A stretch of DNA of 64,000 nucleotides. Origin: Parapedobacter koreensis. GTDB taxonomy: Bacteria > Bacteroidota > Bacteroidia > Sphingobacteriales > Sphingobacteriaceae. Positions 45,866 through 54,680 of this stretch are shown here, piece by piece. The notes under the pieces were generated by a model, which was not told the DNA's origin, did no database searches, and worked only from the letters and a program-made list of their open reading frames with translations. The stretch's first letter is position 1. Each line of letters starts with the position of its first letter. The position numbers and the translations under genes are program-made. The DNA lies in NCBI RefSeq assembly GCF_900109365.1, contig NZ_FNZR01000006.1, forward strand, positions 62,001 to 126,000, read 5' to 3'.

Positions 45866-46549
45866 TTACGATTTAAGTTGTTTAATCGCGGTTATATAGG
45901 AAGAACCTATAGGCAGAATGCTGTCTCCCACGGTCAATTGATGTCGTTCGATTTTCTGTACCTTGTCAATGGCGGCGATAAAAGAGCGGTGTATACGGAT
46001 AAAACGATGGGTAGGCAGCAATTCTTCGCACTCGGTGATGGTCATCCGGCTGAGTACATGGCGATCGCCCAGTACAAAATTGACATAGTTGCCGGTAGCT
46101 TCCAGGTAGTCGATATCCGTGAATGCTATCTTGACCTGGTCATATCCCGTCTTCACGAAGAGGTACTCCGGCTTGATGCCATTCGTGCCCCGCAGTTGCA
46201 GCCATTCCTGCGCCTTGTTGCATGCCTTGAGAAATCGGCTCAGCGAAAATGGTTTGAGCAGATAATCTACTGCATCGAGCTCGAAACCGGCTACGGCATG
46301 TTCGGAATAGGCTGTGGTGAAAACCACCAACGGTTTTTTGCTGAGGCTCCTAAAAAATTCAATGCCCGAAATGTCGGGCATTTTGATGTCCAGAAAGAGG
46401 AGATCAACGGGATGTTGCTGCAGGTAGTCCATTGCCTCAAAGGCATTGGTAAACGTAGCCTGTAACTCCAAGAAAGGCACCTTGGCGGCATGGCTGCTTA
46501 CAACCTCAAGGGCTATGGGTTCGTCGTCTATGGCGATGGCGGTTATCAA
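45866..46549 (-). CDS. LytTR-type response regulator
   Basis: A 227-residue regulator with a receiver (Asp in LLFLDIKMPDISGIEF) and a C-terminal LytTR domain (YLFVKTGYDQVKIAFTDIDYLEATGNY, of which the middle is diagnostic; FIRIHRSFIAAIDKV). It follows the membrane sensor kinase by 42 bp on the same strand and is its clear partner. This is the second LytS/LytR pair of the window. The final residues SSYITAIKQ are normal for the group. Confidence 0.93.
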   Translation of the reverse strand: MITAIAIDDEPIALEVVSSHAAKVPFLELQATFTNAFEAMDYLQQHPVDLLFLDIKMPDISGIEFFRSLSKKPLVVFTTAYSEHAVAGFELDAVDYLLKPFSLSRFLKACNKAQEWLQLRGTNGIKPEYLFVKTGYDQVKIAFTDIDYLEATGNYVNFVLGDRHVLSRMTITECEELLPTHRFIRIHRSFIAAIDKVQKIERHQLTVGDSILPIGSSYITAIKQLKS

Positions 46550-46591
46550 GTTCCGTTCCTTAATATAAATTCGAGGAAATATACAGCCTAA

Positions 46592-48004
46592 TTAGGATAA
46601 TTGGAGGGTTAAATGCACAAAAAATTCTTGCGTGGTCTCGCGTATCACCAGCTCATGCCTGCCGGGATACAGCATGGCCAGTCGTTGTTTCACGTTTTCC
46701 AGTCCAATACCCGAATGACCTCGCTCCGGATCGGAGTCCGATTTCCGGTGGATGCTGTTGTGTACATCGAAAAACAGGTTGCCCTCAGCCTCATAGAGAC
46801 TGATTTTTATCCACGATTTTTCCTGTAGGCTGATGCCGTGTTTGAAGGCGTTTTCAACAAATGGGATGAGCAGCATGGGAGCAATGTAGGTGCTTTCCAA
46901 GGCATCGTTAATGGTATGTTCTACAATAATGCCCGGTGAGGTGGCGGTACGCAGCAATTGGAGATCGATATAGTTGCGGAGATATTCCACTTCGCGGGCG
47001 AGTAAAATCTTGTCCTGGTTGTTTTCATGCAACATGAAGCGCATCAGATCGCCCAGCTTTTGGATGCCGGAAGCGGTACGTTCTGCCTTTTCCTGTAGCG
47101 CCATGCCGTATAGCGTGTTAAGAATGTTGAACAGGAAATGTGGGTTAATTTGGGAGCGAAGGAAACTGAGATCGGCTGAGGTCTGTCCAAGTTCCCTTTT
47201 GAGGCTGAACAATTGCGCTATGCGCGCTTTTTGACGATGATATAGGTAGTAGGAAAGTGGCAGCACGACCAACATGATACAGAACCATTCCAGAAAGAAC
47301 AGCGGCTCATCGGATGAGGTGAAAGCAACGAAGAAAACCCCGAAAGGAATAAACAACGCAAAGGACAATGGCAGGGCCAGCAATAGGTATAAGCCGAAAC
47401 GATACCTGCGTTTCTCACAGGTGGGAATCAGCCAATAGGTGTTCAGTGCGTAGAGGACGTATGTATAAAGTATACCAGAAAACCACAGTCCAGCCAAATC
47501 GCGGTGAATCGTCAGCAACAGGAAAAAGATAAATATACTACCTCCTAAAACCACGACGCTCTCCTGTGCGATCCGTGTAGCGAGCGTTTGCTGCTTGTTC
47601 TGGCCATATCGGATGAGGCGCTTAATGCCCTCGTAGGACAGGATAAGGGAAATGACCAACAGCGTGATTCCCAGCGTTTCTCCGCGGGGGAGGTAGTCCC
47701 AAAAGGTGTGCATACGAATGGTATGGTATTCCCTTACCCAGAAACAGAAGGACAGCCCAAACCACGTCGCGAAGAATAGTGCAAAGGTAAACGAGATACC
47801 TGCTTCCATATACCGTTTCTGGAAAAAGGCCGGCGAAATCCATTGGGTAAAGGTGACGAATGCACCATAAATGATGCTGATATAAGCTGATAGCGCTATC
47901 GCTTGCCGGATGGTTTGATGGGCCGCGTTGTTACTATTGATAAGTATCAGGATGAAGAGATAAATAGCCGTGGCCAAAATGATTTCAATACGATTCAATT
48001 TCAT
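46592..48004 (-). CDS. Membrane sensor histidine kinase (LytS-like)
   Basis: A 470-residue kinase of the His_kinase PF06580 group. Eight or so hydrophobic segments fill the first 250 residues, without a periplasmic domain of size, then a short coiled coil and the core with INPHFLFNILNTLYGM and an ATPase domain (MLLIPFVENAFKHG, HSGIGLENVKQRL). The start at 48004 begins with the first membrane helix; an upstream Met adds seven residues. It is co-transcribed with the LytTR regulator. Confidence 0.92.
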   Translation of the reverse strand: MKLNRIEIILATAIYLFILILINSNNAAHQTIRQAIALSAYISIIYGAFVTFTQWISPAFFQKRYMEAGISFTFALFFATWFGLSFCFWVREYHTIRMHTFWDYLPRGETLGITLLVISLILSYEGIKRLIRYGQNKQQTLATRIAQESVVVLGGSIFIFFLLLTIHRDLAGLWFSGILYTYVLYALNTYWLIPTCEKRRYRFGLYLLLALPLSFALFIPFGVFFVAFTSSDEPLFFLEWFCIMLVVLPLSYYLYHRQKARIAQLFSLKRELGQTSADLSFLRSQINPHFLFNILNTLYGMALQEKAERTASGIQKLGDLMRFMLHENNQDKILLAREVEYLRNYIDLQLLRTATSPGIIVEHTINDALESTYIAPMLLIPFVENAFKHGISLQEKSWIKISLYEAEGNLFFDVHNSIHRKSDSDPERGHSGIGLENVKQRLAMLYPGRHELVIRETTQEFFVHLTLQLS

Positions 48005-48097
48005 TGTTGAATAATTTTCCAGCAAAGAACGCCAATCCAGTATGGCAGGGCAATAAAATGGGATGAAAAAGACTATATAAGTGATGAAACCAGCGGT

Positions 48098-49192
48098 CTA
48101 CAGGGTTTCGTCCTCCCATACCCGGGCCTTGCGCTTTTCAATTGCTTGTTGCACGTGGGTATCGTATAAACTATCGGTAATGGCTATCTCGGCGTCCCGG
48201 TTTTTACCCGAGCGATGAATATCCACGGTTTGCTGATCTCGCAGGGCGATATCGTAAGCATCCCGTACGCTCATCAGTTTTACAAACACCGGTAAGCATT
48301 CAAAGAAGATAAAGAGCAGCATAATAAAGGTGATGGACCAATAGTTGGCCTCGTTCAAGGTGCCGTCAGGATGATATTTCAGGTCGCCCAAAGCGGCATT
48401 GCGATCAGCAAACCCGGCCACGTTTACAGCACTGTCCAACTGGGCACCTGTAAGTAGCCGTTCATCAAGCAGCCCTTCGAATTGTTTACGTTGCTGGATA
48501 AAGGTTTCCTGCAGTTGAATGCGGCTACGGAGCGTATCCAGGTATTGCTCCTGTTTATCAAGCTCGGCCTGGCGTTGTTTGGCGTAGGGTCCATAGCCAA
48601 CGATGCCGGATGTCTCCACGGTCTTTTCGCCGAACGTTTCCATTTTGAGCTTGACCCGATCGGACTTGATCGCGGCTTCGAGGGAATCCCGTTCTGTTTT
48701 TAGCTCGGTTACCCTGCCAAGCTCAATGGCATATTTGCTTTCAAACGCCTTGTTGAGCGTGTCAATGTTGGCCCGCTGCCTATCCAAATACGTCACCCGT
48801 AGCTGTTCGCGTATTTCCTTGTCAAATACCTTGAGTTCCAACGGGCGGGCGATGACAATACCGATGAGCACGGCCAGCAGAATGCGGGGGGTAGCCTGGA
48901 ACAATTGCTTGAGGCCCGATGCGTTTTTGTTGATACTTAGTACGATATAGCGATCCATGTTGAAGATGGCCAAACCCCACAGTAGACCGAATAAAATAGC
49001 GTACAATGGCGCAAAGCTGCCTCCACTAAATACAAAATACAGCGCATATCCACCGGACAGTGCGGCAAACAGTCCGGTAAAAAAAATAGTAGCACCAATG
49101 CCCACATATTTATTGTGTTCGGCAGGGTATTTTGCTAAGGTTGCTTGGTGTGTGCCACTGCACCACCAAAAAAATCGCGTCAGTTTCTCCAT
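48098..49192 (-). CDS. DUF4407 membrane protein
   Basis: A 364-residue protein of the DUF4407 family, with three or four membrane helices: two near residues 30-75 (GATIFFTGLFAALSGGYALYF), one near 100, and one near 290 (SITFIMLLFIFFECLPVFVKL), separated by a long coiled coil (about 130-260). The N-terminal FFWWCSGTH is family-typical. The family is uncharacterised. The start at 49192 is preferred; the frame is open to 49420 but the extra residues are unlike the family. It lies 93 bp upstream of the sensor kinase on the same strand. Confidence 0.87.
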   Translation of the reverse strand: MEKLTRFFWWCSGTHQATLAKYPAEHNKYVGIGATIFFTGLFAALSGGYALYFVFSGGSFAPLYAILFGLLWGLAIFNMDRYIVLSINKNASGLKQLFQATPRILLAVLIGIVIARPLELKVFDKEIREQLRVTYLDRQRANIDTLNKAFESKYAIELGRVTELKTERDSLEAAIKSDRVKLKMETFGEKTVETSGIVGYGPYAKQRQAELDKQEQYLDTLRSRIQLQETFIQQRKQFEGLLDERLLTGAQLDSAVNVAGFADRNAALGDLKYHPDGTLNEANYWSITFIMLLFIFFECLPVFVKLMSVRDAYDIALRDQQTVDIHRSGKNRDAEIAITDSLYDTHVQQAIEKRKARVWEDETL

Positions 49193-49355
49193 CACGTTTG
49201 GATATCCATTTATAAGACGGATTGAAAGCCAAATTGTTACAGGCATTTCCGCCATGACCGCAAAAATAGGAGCTGTGGGATAGATGCCGTACAAACTGGG
49301 ATGAAAGCGATAAAATATGGGACGAAAACGAGTGTGGCCAGTAATAACTGAGCGA

Positions 49356-50087
49356 TTAGCCAGCGTGGAAAATCTCCAGCAGCTTCTTGGATAACGCGCC
49401 AATATCATTCCGATAATCATGGCTTCCCGGCAGCACGGCTACCGGCATCCCTGCCTCGATGAAGGATCGGGTAACTCCGGCATCTTCGTCTTTCCCGAAT
49501 AAAAAATAACAGGGGCAAGTTTTCAGCTTGCGGCATTCCTCCACCACTGGATAGTGCTCGTTTCCCTTGGAATTGTTGAGCAATGTAGCTAAGGTAACTT
49601 CAAAGTCGGCAAAGCGCCCGGGCGAAATGCAGACGGCCATTCCCACCTTCGCCAGCAACTCGCTCGGGAGGCGGCTGAGCATGAAGGGGATCACACTTGC
49701 CCCAAACGAATAGCCGACAACGAAAACCTGTTGGGAGCGCGGATTTTGGAGGCGACCGGCGAGCAACGATGCCATGTCTGCTGCAAGTTGTTGCGGCGTC
49801 TTTGCTTTCCAGAAATAGTTCCGGGCATCCAGCACGAGTACACCGTAGCCCTTACTGCTTATTTCTGCAACGAGGCGTTGGCTGAACGTGTTGTATCCGC
49901 CATCGCCCGACAGGTAAAGGATAAGTGGGAGCGATTCGTTGGCCGCTTTTACCTCCATGACAGGCAGATCCTGTGGAGGTACCTTGGACAACATATCCGG
50001 ACGCGCGCCTGCCGCATTGCAGAGGAATATGCATAAGGCACAAAAGAGGGTGTGGTGTGACCTGCTATTCATCATGTATATGTTCAT
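49356..50087 (-). CDS. VirJ/AcvB-like alpha/beta hydrolase
   Basis: A 243-residue exported hydrolase of the VirJ family (PF06057). A signal peptide (HHTLFCALCIFLCNAAGA) is followed by ILYLSGDGGYNTFSQ, LDARNYFWKAKTPQQ, the nucleophile Ser127 in VGYSFGAS, GKDEDAG and His223 in PGSHDYRN, giving a likely Ser-Asp-His triad. AcvB of Agrobacterium, a relative, hydrolyses lysyl-phosphatidylglycerol and is encoded beside its synthase. Here the gene begins 7 bp after an MprF-like gene, so the same job is inferred. The start may be at Met5 or Met6 instead. Confidence 0.87.
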   Translation of the reverse strand: MNIYMMNSRSHHTLFCALCIFLCNAAGARPDMLSKVPPQDLPVMEVKAANESLPLILYLSGDGGYNTFSQRLVAEISSKGYGVLVLDARNYFWKAKTPQQLAADMASLLAGRLQNPRSQQVFVVGYSFGASVIPFMLSRLPSELLAKVGMAVCISPGRFADFEVTLATLLNNSKGNEHYPVVEECRKLKTCPCYFLFGKDEDAGVTRSFIEAGMPVAVLPGSHDYRNDIGALSKKLLEIFHAG

Positions 50088-50094
50088 GTATATG

Positions 50095-52680
50095 TTATTG
50101 CGTTGGTTTGACCACCTTAGCCAACGTCAAAGGTGCCTGCAATAAATCATAATGGTGATCAAACAGCAGGTACTTGGATTTCCACTCGGGATTGAATTTG
50201 TCTTTGAACTCCCGTAGCCCTTTATAGTGCCGGAAAAGTTGTAGCTTCTCATAGGCAAATTTGACAGTACGCTGCGGCAGATCGGCAGGCCGATCAATGC
50301 CGGAAAACGGAGCCAGCCCCATGTTCAACGTGGCCTGTCCGATTGATCGGCCATATTCGATCAATGCCACAATTAGCGCATCCATGCTTCCACCCGGTGC
50401 ATCGGCCGTTTTCCGGATAAGGTCATAGGTCAGCTCACCAGCGGCATAGTCAGGAATGACGTTCAGGAATGCGACTACCTTTTCATCCGCATTTTCGAGG
50501 GTGATGATCGTCTGCTGTTTCAGCTCGGCCTCATCAAACATTCCTTGCGAAAAGACCAGCTCTTCCCGTTGCATGGATTCCAGCCAACTGTCAGACACAT
50601 GCCTAAGTTTTTGCAACAGGCCGTCTTTGATGGGAGCGTGGTAAATTTGTACGCCATAACCTTTCTTTGCGACGCTGTTGAGCGCATTGCGTAGCGACTT
50701 CCGATCTTTGCCTTCCAGGCGGAACTCTTCGATGCCAACAAGGGCTTCCTGCCCGATGGGCATGGCTTTCCAACCAATGCTGTCATAAAACGGCAGGCGT
50801 TCCTCATCGATACGATAGTAAAACGCACGTAAGCTATTCTCCTTGCAAAATCGATTAAACGCTACCATCAGTTTGGTGCGTTCATCGTCGGTTGCGCAGA
50901 CCGGTTCGTGCAGTACCACGGCGTAGTTATTGGCTACCCGGTAAGCGATCACCCCGTCAATGCCCTCGGCAAAGAAAAACAATTTGTCACGGGCCATCTT
51001 GAAATGGTCGCAGGCCGAATTACCATAGCGGCTGATGTACATCCGGGCGCGCTCCAGTTCCGCTTCGCCATGCCGGGTTTTCCAAATATATGGGCGAATA
51101 AAAGCGTAGAAAAGCAACGACAAGGTGAATATACCGAACAGATTGAGCGAATAGACAAAATACCGGGCAAATTCCGTCTGCGGCTGGAGGTAGTCGGTAT
51201 CCAGCAGTACCAAACATGCCAACGCGTTGACCAGCGACTCGCCCCACGTAAAGTCATCGAGGAAGTGGTGGGTTTTAAGGTAATAAAAGCCGACCGTGCC
51301 ATAGATGGCCACGGCAATGAGGAGCAGGAGAGCAGTACCTATACTGAAATAACGGATGTCCCTGTGCCGCTTAATGTAATATTGCCTATACGTAAATGCA
51401 AGCGTGATAATGGAAAATAGGGCGAGCAAGGCCTCTTCGTAGTCAATGGCCTTGGCCATGTGGCCGAAGAATGACAATACACTCAATCCCATGGCGATGT
51501 ACCATGCATTGCGCAGGCCTTTCAGCAGGAAGGCAGAGCAGATGATGAGCAATACCCCCATCAATAGCACCATGTAGGTGGAGAAATGGATCGCATCGCC
51601 GGGGATAAACTGGCGCAGCAACCGCATGCGTTGGGCCATCACCGGTGTGAGCACGGATGCGATATTAACCACGCCAAGCAGGAAGAGCAGCACCGACGGA
51701 AAAATCCGCAGGAACACATTGCCCCGTTGGAAAATAAAGCTCATTACCCCGATAACCAACGGCAACCAAAATTCGAAAAAGCGGTAAAGAAACGCAGCCG
51801 ATAGCGCTTGTGCGTCATCAAAGCCATAGTGGCGAAGGACCAATACCATGGAAATCTCCACGGCTCCCAACCCCCGCATGAAAGGTGATATGCATAAAAA
51901 CAATGTAGCGATGACGTATCCGGCAACGGCTGCAGTGAGCGATGGTACGAGGCCGAGCGCCAGCATGGCGATGTATAGATGCAGTATGCCGATGGCCTCA
52001 ATGGCCATGGAATATGCCAGCGTACGGTAAAGCCAGCCCAGCGCGAATGCCCCGGAATGGATTTCTTCGATAAGGTGCTCAAGTGATGGCATGTAACGCA
52101 CCAGCAACCGGTAGGCCCACTGTTTGCGGTACAACGATACGCTGAGCCATGCGATCAGACCAACGAACAGGACGAGCAGCATGATGGCTTCCCATTCCCC
52201 ATCGATATGGTGGTCGGTGAGCGCGAGGTAAACGATGACCGGGATCGCGACCAAGATAAGGGATGCAATGCCTACCAGCCCATAGATATAGGAAGCGAAG
52301 TTAATTTTGGTTTTGCTTACCCCTGTCTTTTCGATTTCCTTGGTAAAGAAAATCAACGAGGTAAAGCCCCCGCCCGGCAGGAATACGCTGATGAGGTTGC
52401 GCTTCAGGAAGAGGCTTAAGGCGAGATGGAAGCTCAGGCTTTTGCCCACAGTCTTGAAACTCGCCATGTACATCAGCGCTTGGAAGCCGATATAAGCAGC
52501 CACCAGCAGCAAACCAAGTGCCAACCAGGAATAGGAGCTCTGCACAATGGCGGTCTTTACTTCCGTAAATTCCTGGCCATGCTGCCGTAGGAAATAAATG
52601 CCCAGGATGATGAAGAAAAAGCCCAGGATTTCCTTGACATAATAGTGCTGCGCTTTGAGGTGCGAGACAACATGTTTCAT
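50095..52680 (-). CDS. mprF: MprF-like bifunctional aminoacyl-phosphatidylglycerol synthase/flippase
   Basis: An 861-residue membrane protein of the MprF type, which attaches an amino acid (usually Lys, from its tRNA) to phosphatidylglycerol and flips the product, lowering the surface negative charge. The N-terminal two-thirds carry about 13-14 hydrophobic segments (LPG_synthase_TM region; FLPGGGFTSLIFF is typical), and the C-terminal 300 residues form the DUF2156 GNAT-like transferase (DGVIAYRVANNYAVVLHEPVC, LNMGLAPFSGI). Amino acid specificity cannot be told. The downstream VirJ-like gene 7 bp away is a likely hydrolase of the product. Confidence 0.92.
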   Translation of the reverse strand: MKHVVSHLKAQHYYVKEILGFFFIILGIYFLRQHGQEFTEVKTAIVQSSYSWLALGLLLVAAYIGFQALMYMASFKTVGKSLSFHLALSLFLKRNLISVFLPGGGFTSLIFFTKEIEKTGVSKTKINFASYIYGLVGIASLILVAIPVIVYLALTDHHIDGEWEAIMLLVLFVGLIAWLSVSLYRKQWAYRLLVRYMPSLEHLIEEIHSGAFALGWLYRTLAYSMAIEAIGILHLYIAMLALGLVPSLTAAVAGYVIATLFLCISPFMRGLGAVEISMVLVLRHYGFDDAQALSAAFLYRFFEFWLPLVIGVMSFIFQRGNVFLRIFPSVLLFLLGVVNIASVLTPVMAQRMRLLRQFIPGDAIHFSTYMVLLMGVLLIICSAFLLKGLRNAWYIAMGLSVLSFFGHMAKAIDYEEALLALFSIITLAFTYRQYYIKRHRDIRYFSIGTALLLLIAVAIYGTVGFYYLKTHHFLDDFTWGESLVNALACLVLLDTDYLQPQTEFARYFVYSLNLFGIFTLSLLFYAFIRPYIWKTRHGEAELERARMYISRYGNSACDHFKMARDKLFFFAEGIDGVIAYRVANNYAVVLHEPVCATDDERTKLMVAFNRFCKENSLRAFYYRIDEERLPFYDSIGWKAMPIGQEALVGIEEFRLEGKDRKSLRNALNSVAKKGYGVQIYHAPIKDGLLQKLRHVSDSWLESMQREELVFSQGMFDEAELKQQTIITLENADEKVVAFLNVIPDYAAGELTYDLIRKTADAPGGSMDALIVALIEYGRSIGQATLNMGLAPFSGIDRPADLPQRTVKFAYEKLQLFRHYKGLREFKDKFNPEWKSKYLLFDHHYDLLQAPLTLAKVVKPTQ

Positions 52681-52740: not shown

Positions 52741-53502
52741 TTATGCCAACCCCAAATGCACCTTCACGACATGCCCATTGGAACGGCTCGATTTGAAGCG
52801 CGGATTATCCACCGCCTCCATCACGAACGTATACGAGCCGTTGAACCCTTTGCGGATTTCACTGATGCAATCCGTGTTGATGAGTATGCTGCGGTGTATA
52901 CGCAGGAAATTGCCGGACAATAGGTTTTCCAAATCAGCAAGCGTGTAGTCGGTGAGGTGGCGTTTGCCGTCCTTCGTGTGAAGCATGACGTATTTGTCTT
53001 CGGCCTCGGCTGCTACGATATCGGCGGTCTTGATGAGCAGTATCCGATCACCCAGCTTTACGGTGAGGCTCAAGGGCTGTTTTTTTGCAGGTTGCAATCC
53101 GTCCAGCAACCGCTGTAGGTCAAAAAGTCCCGTAGCGGCCGCTTCGGCCTGCGTGATTTTCTGAATGGTTTTCTTCAGTCGCTCAGCTTCCACGGGCTTC
53201 AAGAGGTAGTCAATGGAATTTTCTTCGAAGGCTTTCAGCGCATATTGGTCATAAGCCGTCACAAAGACCACCCGTGGCTGCCGCTTCAATTGCCCGAGTA
53301 ACTCAAACCCATTGAGCACGGGCATTTCGATATCCAGAAACAGCAAATCAGGCTTAAGCGCTTCAATCCGTGCGAGGCCTTCCTCGCCATTGCTGGCCTC
53401 GCCTACCACGTGGATGGCCGGATAAGGCACCAGCAATTGGCGGAGCCGTTGCCGGGCAAGTGGCTCGTCATCGATAATCAGGGCGTTATACGTTGTCGTC
53501 AT
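52741..53502 (-). CDS. LytTR-type response regulator
   Basis: A 253-residue regulator with a receiver (Asp in LLFLDIEMPVLNGFELL) and LytTR DNA-binding domain (DIVAAEAEDKYVMLHT, FLRIHRSILINTDCI). It overlaps the upstream sensor kinase gene by 4 bp, so the two are translated together. It lies 60 bp upstream of mprF on the same strand, making mprF a positional candidate for control. This is the third LytS/LytR pair. Confidence 0.94.
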   Translation of the reverse strand: MTTTYNALIIDDEPLARQRLRQLLVPYPAIHVVGEASNGEEGLARIEALKPDLLFLDIEMPVLNGFELLGQLKRQPRVVFVTAYDQYALKAFEENSIDYLLKPVEAERLKKTIQKITQAEAAATGLFDLQRLLDGLQPAKKQPLSLTVKLGDRILLIKTADIVAAEAEDKYVMLHTKDGKRHLTDYTLADLENLLSGNFLRIHRSILINTDCISEIRKGFNGSYTFVMEAVDNPRFKSSRSNGHVVKVHLGLA

Positions 53503-54566
53503 GCTTCAAGGGGTATGCTGATGGTCAATTGTTTATGCGGTGAATTAAGCAGGCTGACCTGATAGTCTTCACCATAGAGCAGTTGCAATTTGTCATAAGT
53601 GCTTTGCAGGCCATAGCCCGCTTTCAGTTCATCGGGAAAGGGCTGCCCGTTGTCCGATACGACGATGAGCAGTCGTCCACCCTGCCGTTTGAGCTGCACG
53701 TCGAGCAGGCCATTTTCTGTGACATCCTTCAGCCCATGTTTGAGTGCATTCTCCACCAAAGGCTGGATGAGGAATCGCGGCATGCGAACGGCCTCTAACC
53801 CTTCTTCCACTGCCACAGAAAAGCGGATACGTTCCCCGAACCGCACTCGCTCGATGTCGATATACGTATTGACGATATCCAACTCGCTGGCCACCGTGCC
53901 CCAATGTCCTTGTTCCTGATTAATGCTCTGCCGGAATAGGTTAGACAGCTTCACGGTCATCTCTTCGGCTTTAGCCGGATTGGATGGAATGAGGCTGGCG
54001 ATGGAATTGAGCGCGTTATACAGGAAATGCGGGTTGATTTTGGATTGCAGCGCCGCCAGTTCCGCCTCGGTTTTGAGCTTGCCCATCCGCATGATGTCCA
54101 TTTCCTTTTGCTGTAATACCGCCTTTTGGCGTTCCTTCATGCTGAAATAGATGTAGATGATTGTGCAGATTATCAAACAGATAATCGCGTTGAATTGCAG
54201 GTCTGCCAAGTGGAAAAACCGGAAAGGGATGTCAAACAGCCAAGCGGCCAATAAGTAGGTGAGCTCCACGCCCACGACCATGCCCGCTAAGCTCACGCCG
54301 TAGTAGACTAGCAAGAATCCCCAGCCGTAAGTGGCCTTCCGTTTACTGAAAAGACCTATTATGTGAATACTGTTGGCGATGCAGAGGCTAATGATAATGC
54401 CAAACATCAAGCTGATGAGCATGCTTCTGGATGAGGGCCAGCTTCCGCGCACCAGCGCGACACAGGTGGATATGATGAATGAAATCAATATACCCAAGAG
54501 GATGGACGCCAGATTGAGTCCCAGCCAGTAATAACGGCTTTTTGTGAAGTCTGTTGCAGTTTTCAT
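53499..54566 (-). CDS. Membrane sensor histidine kinase (LytS-like)
   Basis: A 355-residue kinase of the PF06580 group with four hydrophobic helices in the first 150 residues, a short coiled coil (FSMKERQKAVLQQKEM), the His box INPHFLYNALNSIASL and the ATPase domain (FLIQPLVENALKHGL, VSDNGQPFP). The Met at 54566 is chosen; the frame is open a further eleven codons. The overlap of 4 bp with the LytTR regulator fixes the pair. Its sensor part is very small, so the signal is likely within the membrane. Confidence 0.93.
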   Translation of the reverse strand: MKTATDFTKSRYYWLGLNLASILLGILISFIISTCVALVRGSWPSSRSMLISLMFGIIISLCIANSIHIIGLFSKRKATYGWGFLLVYYGVSLAGMVVGVELTYLLAAWLFDIPFRFFHLADLQFNAIICLIICTIIYIYFSMKERQKAVLQQKEMDIMRMGKLKTEAELAALQSKINPHFLYNALNSIASLIPSNPAKAEEMTVKLSNLFRQSINQEQGHWGTVASELDIVNTYIDIERVRFGERIRFSVAVEEGLEAVRMPRFLIQPLVENALKHGLKDVTENGLLDVQLKRQGGRLLIVVSDNGQPFPDELKAGYGLQSTYDKLQLLYGEDYQVSLLNSPHKQLTISIPLEA

Positions 54567-54680
54567 AATCTGTTGGTGTTCATATTTTTCATGCAGCAAA
54601 GATGAACACCTTGGATAGTCCGATAAAGGAATCTCCGACGAGCGGTAGGATGAGTCGAATGAATGGTCTACATCATCGAC

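Follow-up and report, generated by a model that had tools for sequence, protein, structure and literature searches.

A predicted make-and-break gene pair for an aminoacylated membrane lipid in Parapedobacter koreensis

Enzymes of the MprF family usually transfer amino acids to phosphatidylglycerol (PG). In Proteobacteria and Firmicutes, the reversible charging of lipids in the membrane has effects on both acid tolerance and the sensitivity to cationic peptides. The closest described system is that of Agrobacterium tumefaciens, where the lysyl-PG synthase LpiA and the periplasmic hydrolase AcvB are encoded in one operon. AcvB hydrolyses lysyl-PG (Lys-PG) at the periplasmic face by means of Ser336 and His433, requires Asp271, Asp340 and Asp370 for full activity and is held to the membrane by a hydrophobic loop, Trp378-Leu379 (PMC13197417). 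An alanine mutant of Asp340 loses activity, and Asp370 was proposed as the lysine-selective residue (PMC13197417). VirJ of octopine Ti plasmids is a related, single-domain exported hydrolase of the same Pfam family (PF06057), and P. aeruginosa, an organism that has MprF and produces alanyl-PG (Ala-PG), carries the AcvB-family hydrolase PA0919. The acceptor lipid can vary within the MprF family. The MprF of the Gram-positive S. agalactiae charges glucosyl-diacylglycerol as well as PG, yielding Lys-Glc-DAG and Lys-PG, in accounts whose relevant passages mention no VirJ partner (PMC8893666, PMC11630815).

Here, a window of 64,000 nucleotides from the genome of P. koreensis was analyzed, in which a predicted mprF gene is followed by a virJ/acvB-like gene (Table 1). 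By family and gene order, the pair is an LpiA-AcvB arrangement, with the synthase first and the hydrolase second. In the literature searched, outside of which many journals lie, we found neither a study of an mprF-virJ pair in Bacteroidota nor a measured activity of one. The pairing is common in this phylum, where the same two-gene arrangement occurs in five orders, and apparently unstudied there.

Table 1. Features of the mprF-virJ locus (positions within the window)
Feature	Position	Strand	Description
virJ/acvB-like alpha/beta hydrolase gene	49356..50087	-	243 aa; exported-looking; PF06057
mprF-virJ intergenic gap (mprF stop to virJ start)	50088..50094	-	7 bp, from the sequence
mprF	50095..52680	-	861 aa; predicted bifunctional aminoacyl-lipid synthase/flippase by domain content
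LytTR response regulator gene	52741..53502	-	Pfam Response_reg + LytTR; 60 bp upstream of mprF
His_kinase-family sensor gene	53499..54599	-	Pfam His_kinase; 4-bp overlap with the regulator gene

The mprF and virJ genes and their products

Both domains expected of an MprF protein were detected by Pfam. The C-terminal part (residues 550-839) matched LPG_synthase_C (PF09924; E = 1.6e-61, 208.5 bits versus a cut-off of 27.5), and the N-terminal flippase domain (residues 18-311) matched LPG_synthase_TM (PF03706; E = 2.9e-24, 86.5 bits versus 33.4). The NCBIfam model bifunc_MprF aligned to residues 19-858 with 554.1 bits, below its cut-off of 600; therefore, Pfam family membership is claimed for this protein and the equivalog name (lysyl-PG flippase/synthetase) is not. 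The closest PDB match was the lysyl-PG synthase of B. licheniformis (4v36, E = 3e-48). When a profile of the MprF family was compared with the PDB, 4v36 scored 254.7 bits and the LpiA chain 6lvf 246.6 bits, versus 167.1 bits for the P. aeruginosa alanyl-PG synthase 4v34 and 225.9-228.8 bits for full-length P. aeruginosa chains. With the membrane part alone, a phmmer search of the PDB matched no MprF structure, but the family profile did.

A Glu-Arg ion pair lies between the flippase cavities (Glu280/Arg304 in PMC8131360). In the window protein this pair is Glu275 and Arg300, which align with GxGxxE and LYR in the LpiA chain and were invariant in 23 relatives. The pocket residues Ser696 and Arg756 were likewise invariant among the 23 proteins and, judged by the spacing in the 4v36 alignment, appear to be the equivalents of residues 684 and 742 of PMC11630815. 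The YRxxY motif is highly conserved among MprFs without strictly defining them, and in the structure from R. tropici (PMC8131360) its last residue is in contact with the side chain of the lysine. In the window MprF this stretch reads YRFFE, and the final residue was Glu in every family variant listed.

The second protein matched Pfam VirJ (PF06057; E = 6.5e-33, 114.7 bits versus a cut-off of 22) and, by phmmer, the catalytic domain of AcvB (PDB 9xhn, E = 1.3e-20). We claim PF06057 membership for it, not Lys-PG hydrolase activity. The whole 5.5-Mb genome contains one copy each of MprF and VirJ. The sequence-only reading had placed an MprF-like gene ahead of a VirJ/AcvB-like gene at these coordinates and with this 7-bp spacing, and Pfam, NCBIfam, phmmer and the sequence itself all confirmed it. 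The short gap is consistent with a single transcript; in relatives the two genes are often separated by -3 to +10 bp.

An AlphaFold2 model of VirJ (mean pLDDT 88.8) had an alpha/beta hydrolase fold, preceded by a hydrophobic helix (residues 8-24) that resembles a signal peptide. A Foldseek search of the PDB with this model returned generic alpha/beta hydrolases, and AcvB was not among the best 50 matches listed. In the alignment, Asp62, Ser127 and His223 correspond to Asp271, Ser336 and His433 of AcvB and were invariant (65 of 65 Bacteroidota rows). Asp161 corresponds to Asp370 of AcvB, a position held by Asp in 56 of the 65 rows, whereas Pseudomonas homologues carry Thr or Ser there (PMC13197417). 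The window pair therefore shares with LpiA-AcvB both protein families, the Ser/His dyad and the equivalents of Asp271 and Asp370. It differs in that the hydrolase is a one-domain protein where AcvB has two domains, Ser131 occupies the position of Asp340 (Ser likewise in 16/65 rows), and Leu169-Leu170, which are hydrophobic but lack the Trp and lie in a loop of lower model confidence, replace Trp378-Leu379. The single-domain form is that of the octopine Ti VirJ, which sits among type IV secretion genes, whereas the window virJ lies beside mprF. Around the catalytic His the protein reads GSHDY, where GGHHY is the usual form. In the VirJ tree it is placed on a long branch, with at most about 36-39% identity to any relative.

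Distribution and history of the gene pair

In a phylum-wide sample of 296 genomes, VirJ was found in 8 and MprF in 53. Within the family to which P. koreensis belongs, the counts were 58/301 for VirJ and 74/301 for MprF, the latter leaving out one further match below the cut-off. All 58 VirJ genomes of the family also encoded MprF (Fisher p about 1e-47, uncorrected for shared ancestry), and 56 of them had a virJ gene no more than 3 kb from mprF. A virJ without an mprF somewhere in the same genome was not seen in this family; mprF can stand alone. Among 76 VirJ genes within 3 kb of mprF, 73 were on the 3' side of mprF, 42 of them co-oriented with it and 31 convergent. A collection with record titles was searched with a VirJ alignment, a single-protein query having found nothing, and 65 of its 80 VirJ loci adjoined mprF. 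They came from five Bacteroidota orders and several Proteobacteria, with adjacent pairs in Pedobacter, Flavobacterium, Dyadobacter, Chitinophaga and Bacteroidales as well as in Caballeronia, Paraburkholderia and Novispirillum. The pairing of mprF and virJ is not a matter of chance. For 33 pairs, MprF identity was correlated with the identity of the VirJ partner (r = 0.88; none of 2000 permutations was as high), a correlation to which shared species history contributes.

Other forms of the pair were also seen. In some genomes there is a second mprF-virJ cluster, in which virJ precedes mprF at a distance of a few kb (L063, 5472-11394; L064, 5152-10999). Its VirJ has GHSFSAG around the Ser and Ser at the 370 position, which makes this cluster a candidate for a different head group. 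Several genomes carry two virJ genes in tandem (L061, 6580-7341; L066, 4328-5047; L089, 5340-6113), one of each two starting like a lipoprotein, e.g. with LSSCG; this suggests two compartments or two substrates. At L077 (genome G095, 4368000-4376354) a second mprF-virJ copy is broken, its MprF matches lying in pieces with an internal stop and its VirJ in fragments.

Near relatives of P. koreensis differ in this locus. VirJ was absent from each of the eight further genus members that were examined. One of them, G345, is the nearest relative with mprF in the same slot before a DUF4407 gene, and its mprF is 85% identical. The G345 locus has neither virJ nor the LytTR pair, and tblastn found no virJ remnant between its mprF and the DUF4407 gene. 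In G319, of the same genus, the slot contains the LytTR pair, with neither mprF nor virJ. The window MprF grouped with those of G345, G351 and G311 in the MprF tree, and the window VirJ grouped with that of G311 (apparently bacterium A37T11), as in the MprF tree. Since the genomes of G345 and G351 encode MprF and no VirJ, some species can do without the hydrolase. The simplest account of these distributions would be that mprF and virJ are an old pair and that G345 and G351 have since lost virJ.

Proposed cycle, acceptor lipid and amino acid

Observed here were the identity of the two genes, their adjacency and co-occurrence, their correlated divergence and the conservation of the catalytic residues. 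Together with what is known of LpiA/AcvB and other MprFs, from which the reactions, the membrane topology and a preference for lysine are inferred, these observations make it likely that the products of mprF and virJ make and break an aminoacylated membrane lipid. MprF would take an amino acid, most likely lysine, from an aminoacyl-tRNA and, at the cytoplasmic face, join it by an ester bond to a hydroxyl of a membrane lipid; the membrane domain of the enzyme would then carry the product over to the periplasmic leaflet. There, the exported VirJ would remove the amino acid via Ser127 and His223, so that the amount of cationic lipid could be set and reversed. Such a cycle had been proposed in the sequence-only reading. 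The juxtaposition of a synthase/flippase and an AcvB-type hydrolase held, with the catalytic residues and the pair itself conserved in Bacteroidota; PG as the charged lipid is uncertain. Several points argue against a cycle: Ser131 stands in place of an Asp whose alanine mutant loses activity in AcvB (PMC13197417), the window VirJ has a long branch, some near MprFs (G345, G351) lack a VirJ, and MprF scores under the NCBIfam equivalog cut-off. A VirJ that is broken or repurposed, so that the pair is no longer a working cycle, would fit the long branch, Ser131, GSHDY in place of GGHHY and the absence of VirJ from the other eight genus members examined. We regard this as very unlikely, for the 243-aa frame is open, the dyad and Asp62 are intact, and Ser at the 340 position is common to many intact paired homologues, including that of A37T11.

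The acceptor of the proposed make-and-break pair is left uncertain, because no PgsA was recognisable in several pair-carrying genomes and because a lipid study of a family member and a Flavobacterium does not mention PG. PE and ornithine lipids were described in P. saltans, a member of the family, and in F. johnsoniae, with lysine lipids in P. saltans; PMC4484230 nowhere mentions phosphatidylglycerol. The comparison draws on the lipid lists of these strains, whatever their mprF content. The P. koreensis genome encodes three CDP-alcohol transferases, namely PssA, a protein (L116) that scores weakly as PgsA and as cardiolipin synthase, and one weakly like inositol-phosphate synthases. A Lys-PG cycle of the ordinary kind, identical to that of Agrobacterium, is given an even chance. 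In the literature consulted, every characterised AcvB/VirJ enzyme acts on Lys-PG or is linked to an Ala-PG producer (PMC13197417, PMC13135905), and the scores of L116 make PG possible in P. koreensis. However, L116 is below the PgsA cut-off (47.9 versus 109 bits), and G345, which retained mprF, lacks a close orthologue of it. In a test of 80 genomes, six MprF- and VirJ-positive members of the family (G296, G353, G422, G568, G571 and G582) had a single CDP-alcohol transferase. It was PssA-like in each: five scored above the pssA cut-off, that of G582 fell slightly short of it, and the CDP-alcohol phosphatidyltransferase search recognised no PgsA in these six genomes. These genomes and the lipid list both argue against PG.

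An acceptor other than PG, such as a glycolipid, a phosphoinositide, a sphingolipid or a hydroxylated amino lipid, which MprF would charge and VirJ discharge, has a precedent in the glucosyl-diacylglycerol of S. agalactiae. The genomes with no recognisable PgsA point the same way, as does G446, an MprF- and VirJ-positive genome with a protein above the NCBIfam PIPSynBT1523 cut-off besides a PssA-type enzyme. Yet a phospholipase-D-type synthase could make PG, the genome survey having covered CDP-alcohol transferases, and a PssA-like enzyme could have another specificity. We therefore hold a non-PG acceptor to be possible but doubtful. Equally tentative is the extension to Sphingobacteriaceae-type bacteria in general, in which the pair might cycle a non-PG lipid and provide a reversible cationic lipid in membranes with little or no PG. 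Were the acceptor not PG, a new bacterial lipid could be expected in soil bacteria that are common, and the pair would offer genetic access to it. A second CDP-alcohol transferase was commoner in MprF-positive (35/45) than in MprF-negative (16/32) genomes (p = 0.015), a difference from which no conclusion is drawn, as few of the extra enzymes were classified and none of these few was above the PgsA cut-off.

Lysine is the favoured amino acid, because Asp161 of VirJ matches Asp370, the proposed lysine-selective residue of AcvB. A small residue such as the alanine used in Pseudomonas is improbable. Ser131 in place of Asp340 would render the head-group pocket less acidic, and Ser, Ala, Asn or Gly is found at the 370 position in some Bacteroidota VirJs; the window VirJ, however, retains Asp161, and the MprF profile is nearer to the lysyl synthases than to the alanyl one. 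Moreover, the side chain of lysine is bound in the R. tropici MprF flippase by Tyr307 (PMC8131360); its counterpart is Glu303 in the window MprF and Glu in the relatives inspected, a residue that would suit a basic group.

Neighbouring genes and promoter patterns

A LytTR regulator and sensor pair had been noted just upstream of mprF and does lie there, on the same strand; a link to mprF found no support. As a dedicated mprF regulator the pair was rejected, since the G345 mprF occurs without it and G319, which has no MprF, carries it with a sensor orthologue of 86% identity. Close orthologues of the pair were not found at any other mprF locus examined. The two genes are neighbours and probably not part of the system. 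At the L064 mprF locus a different LytTR pair lies ~2 kb away, closer to a second pair of the window. This second LytTR regulator/His_kinase pair (45866-48025) is located downstream, beside the DUF4407 gene (48098-49192), which it accompanies in 8/9 genus genomes, with mprF present or not. The DUF4407 gene probably starts near 49192, versus 49420 in the mechanical ORF. It was rejected as a third member of the system, since it occurs in all nine genomes of the genus, mprF or not, and has a Bacteroidota-type promoter-like match of its own (49261-49295). A scan for sigma-70 promoters gave sites no more numerous than in shuffled sequences. The Bacteroidota-type pattern TTTG-N17-23-TAnnTTTG was found at 8 sites in the window, that at 49261-49295 among them, versus 2.2 expected, a number that none of 100 shuffles reached.
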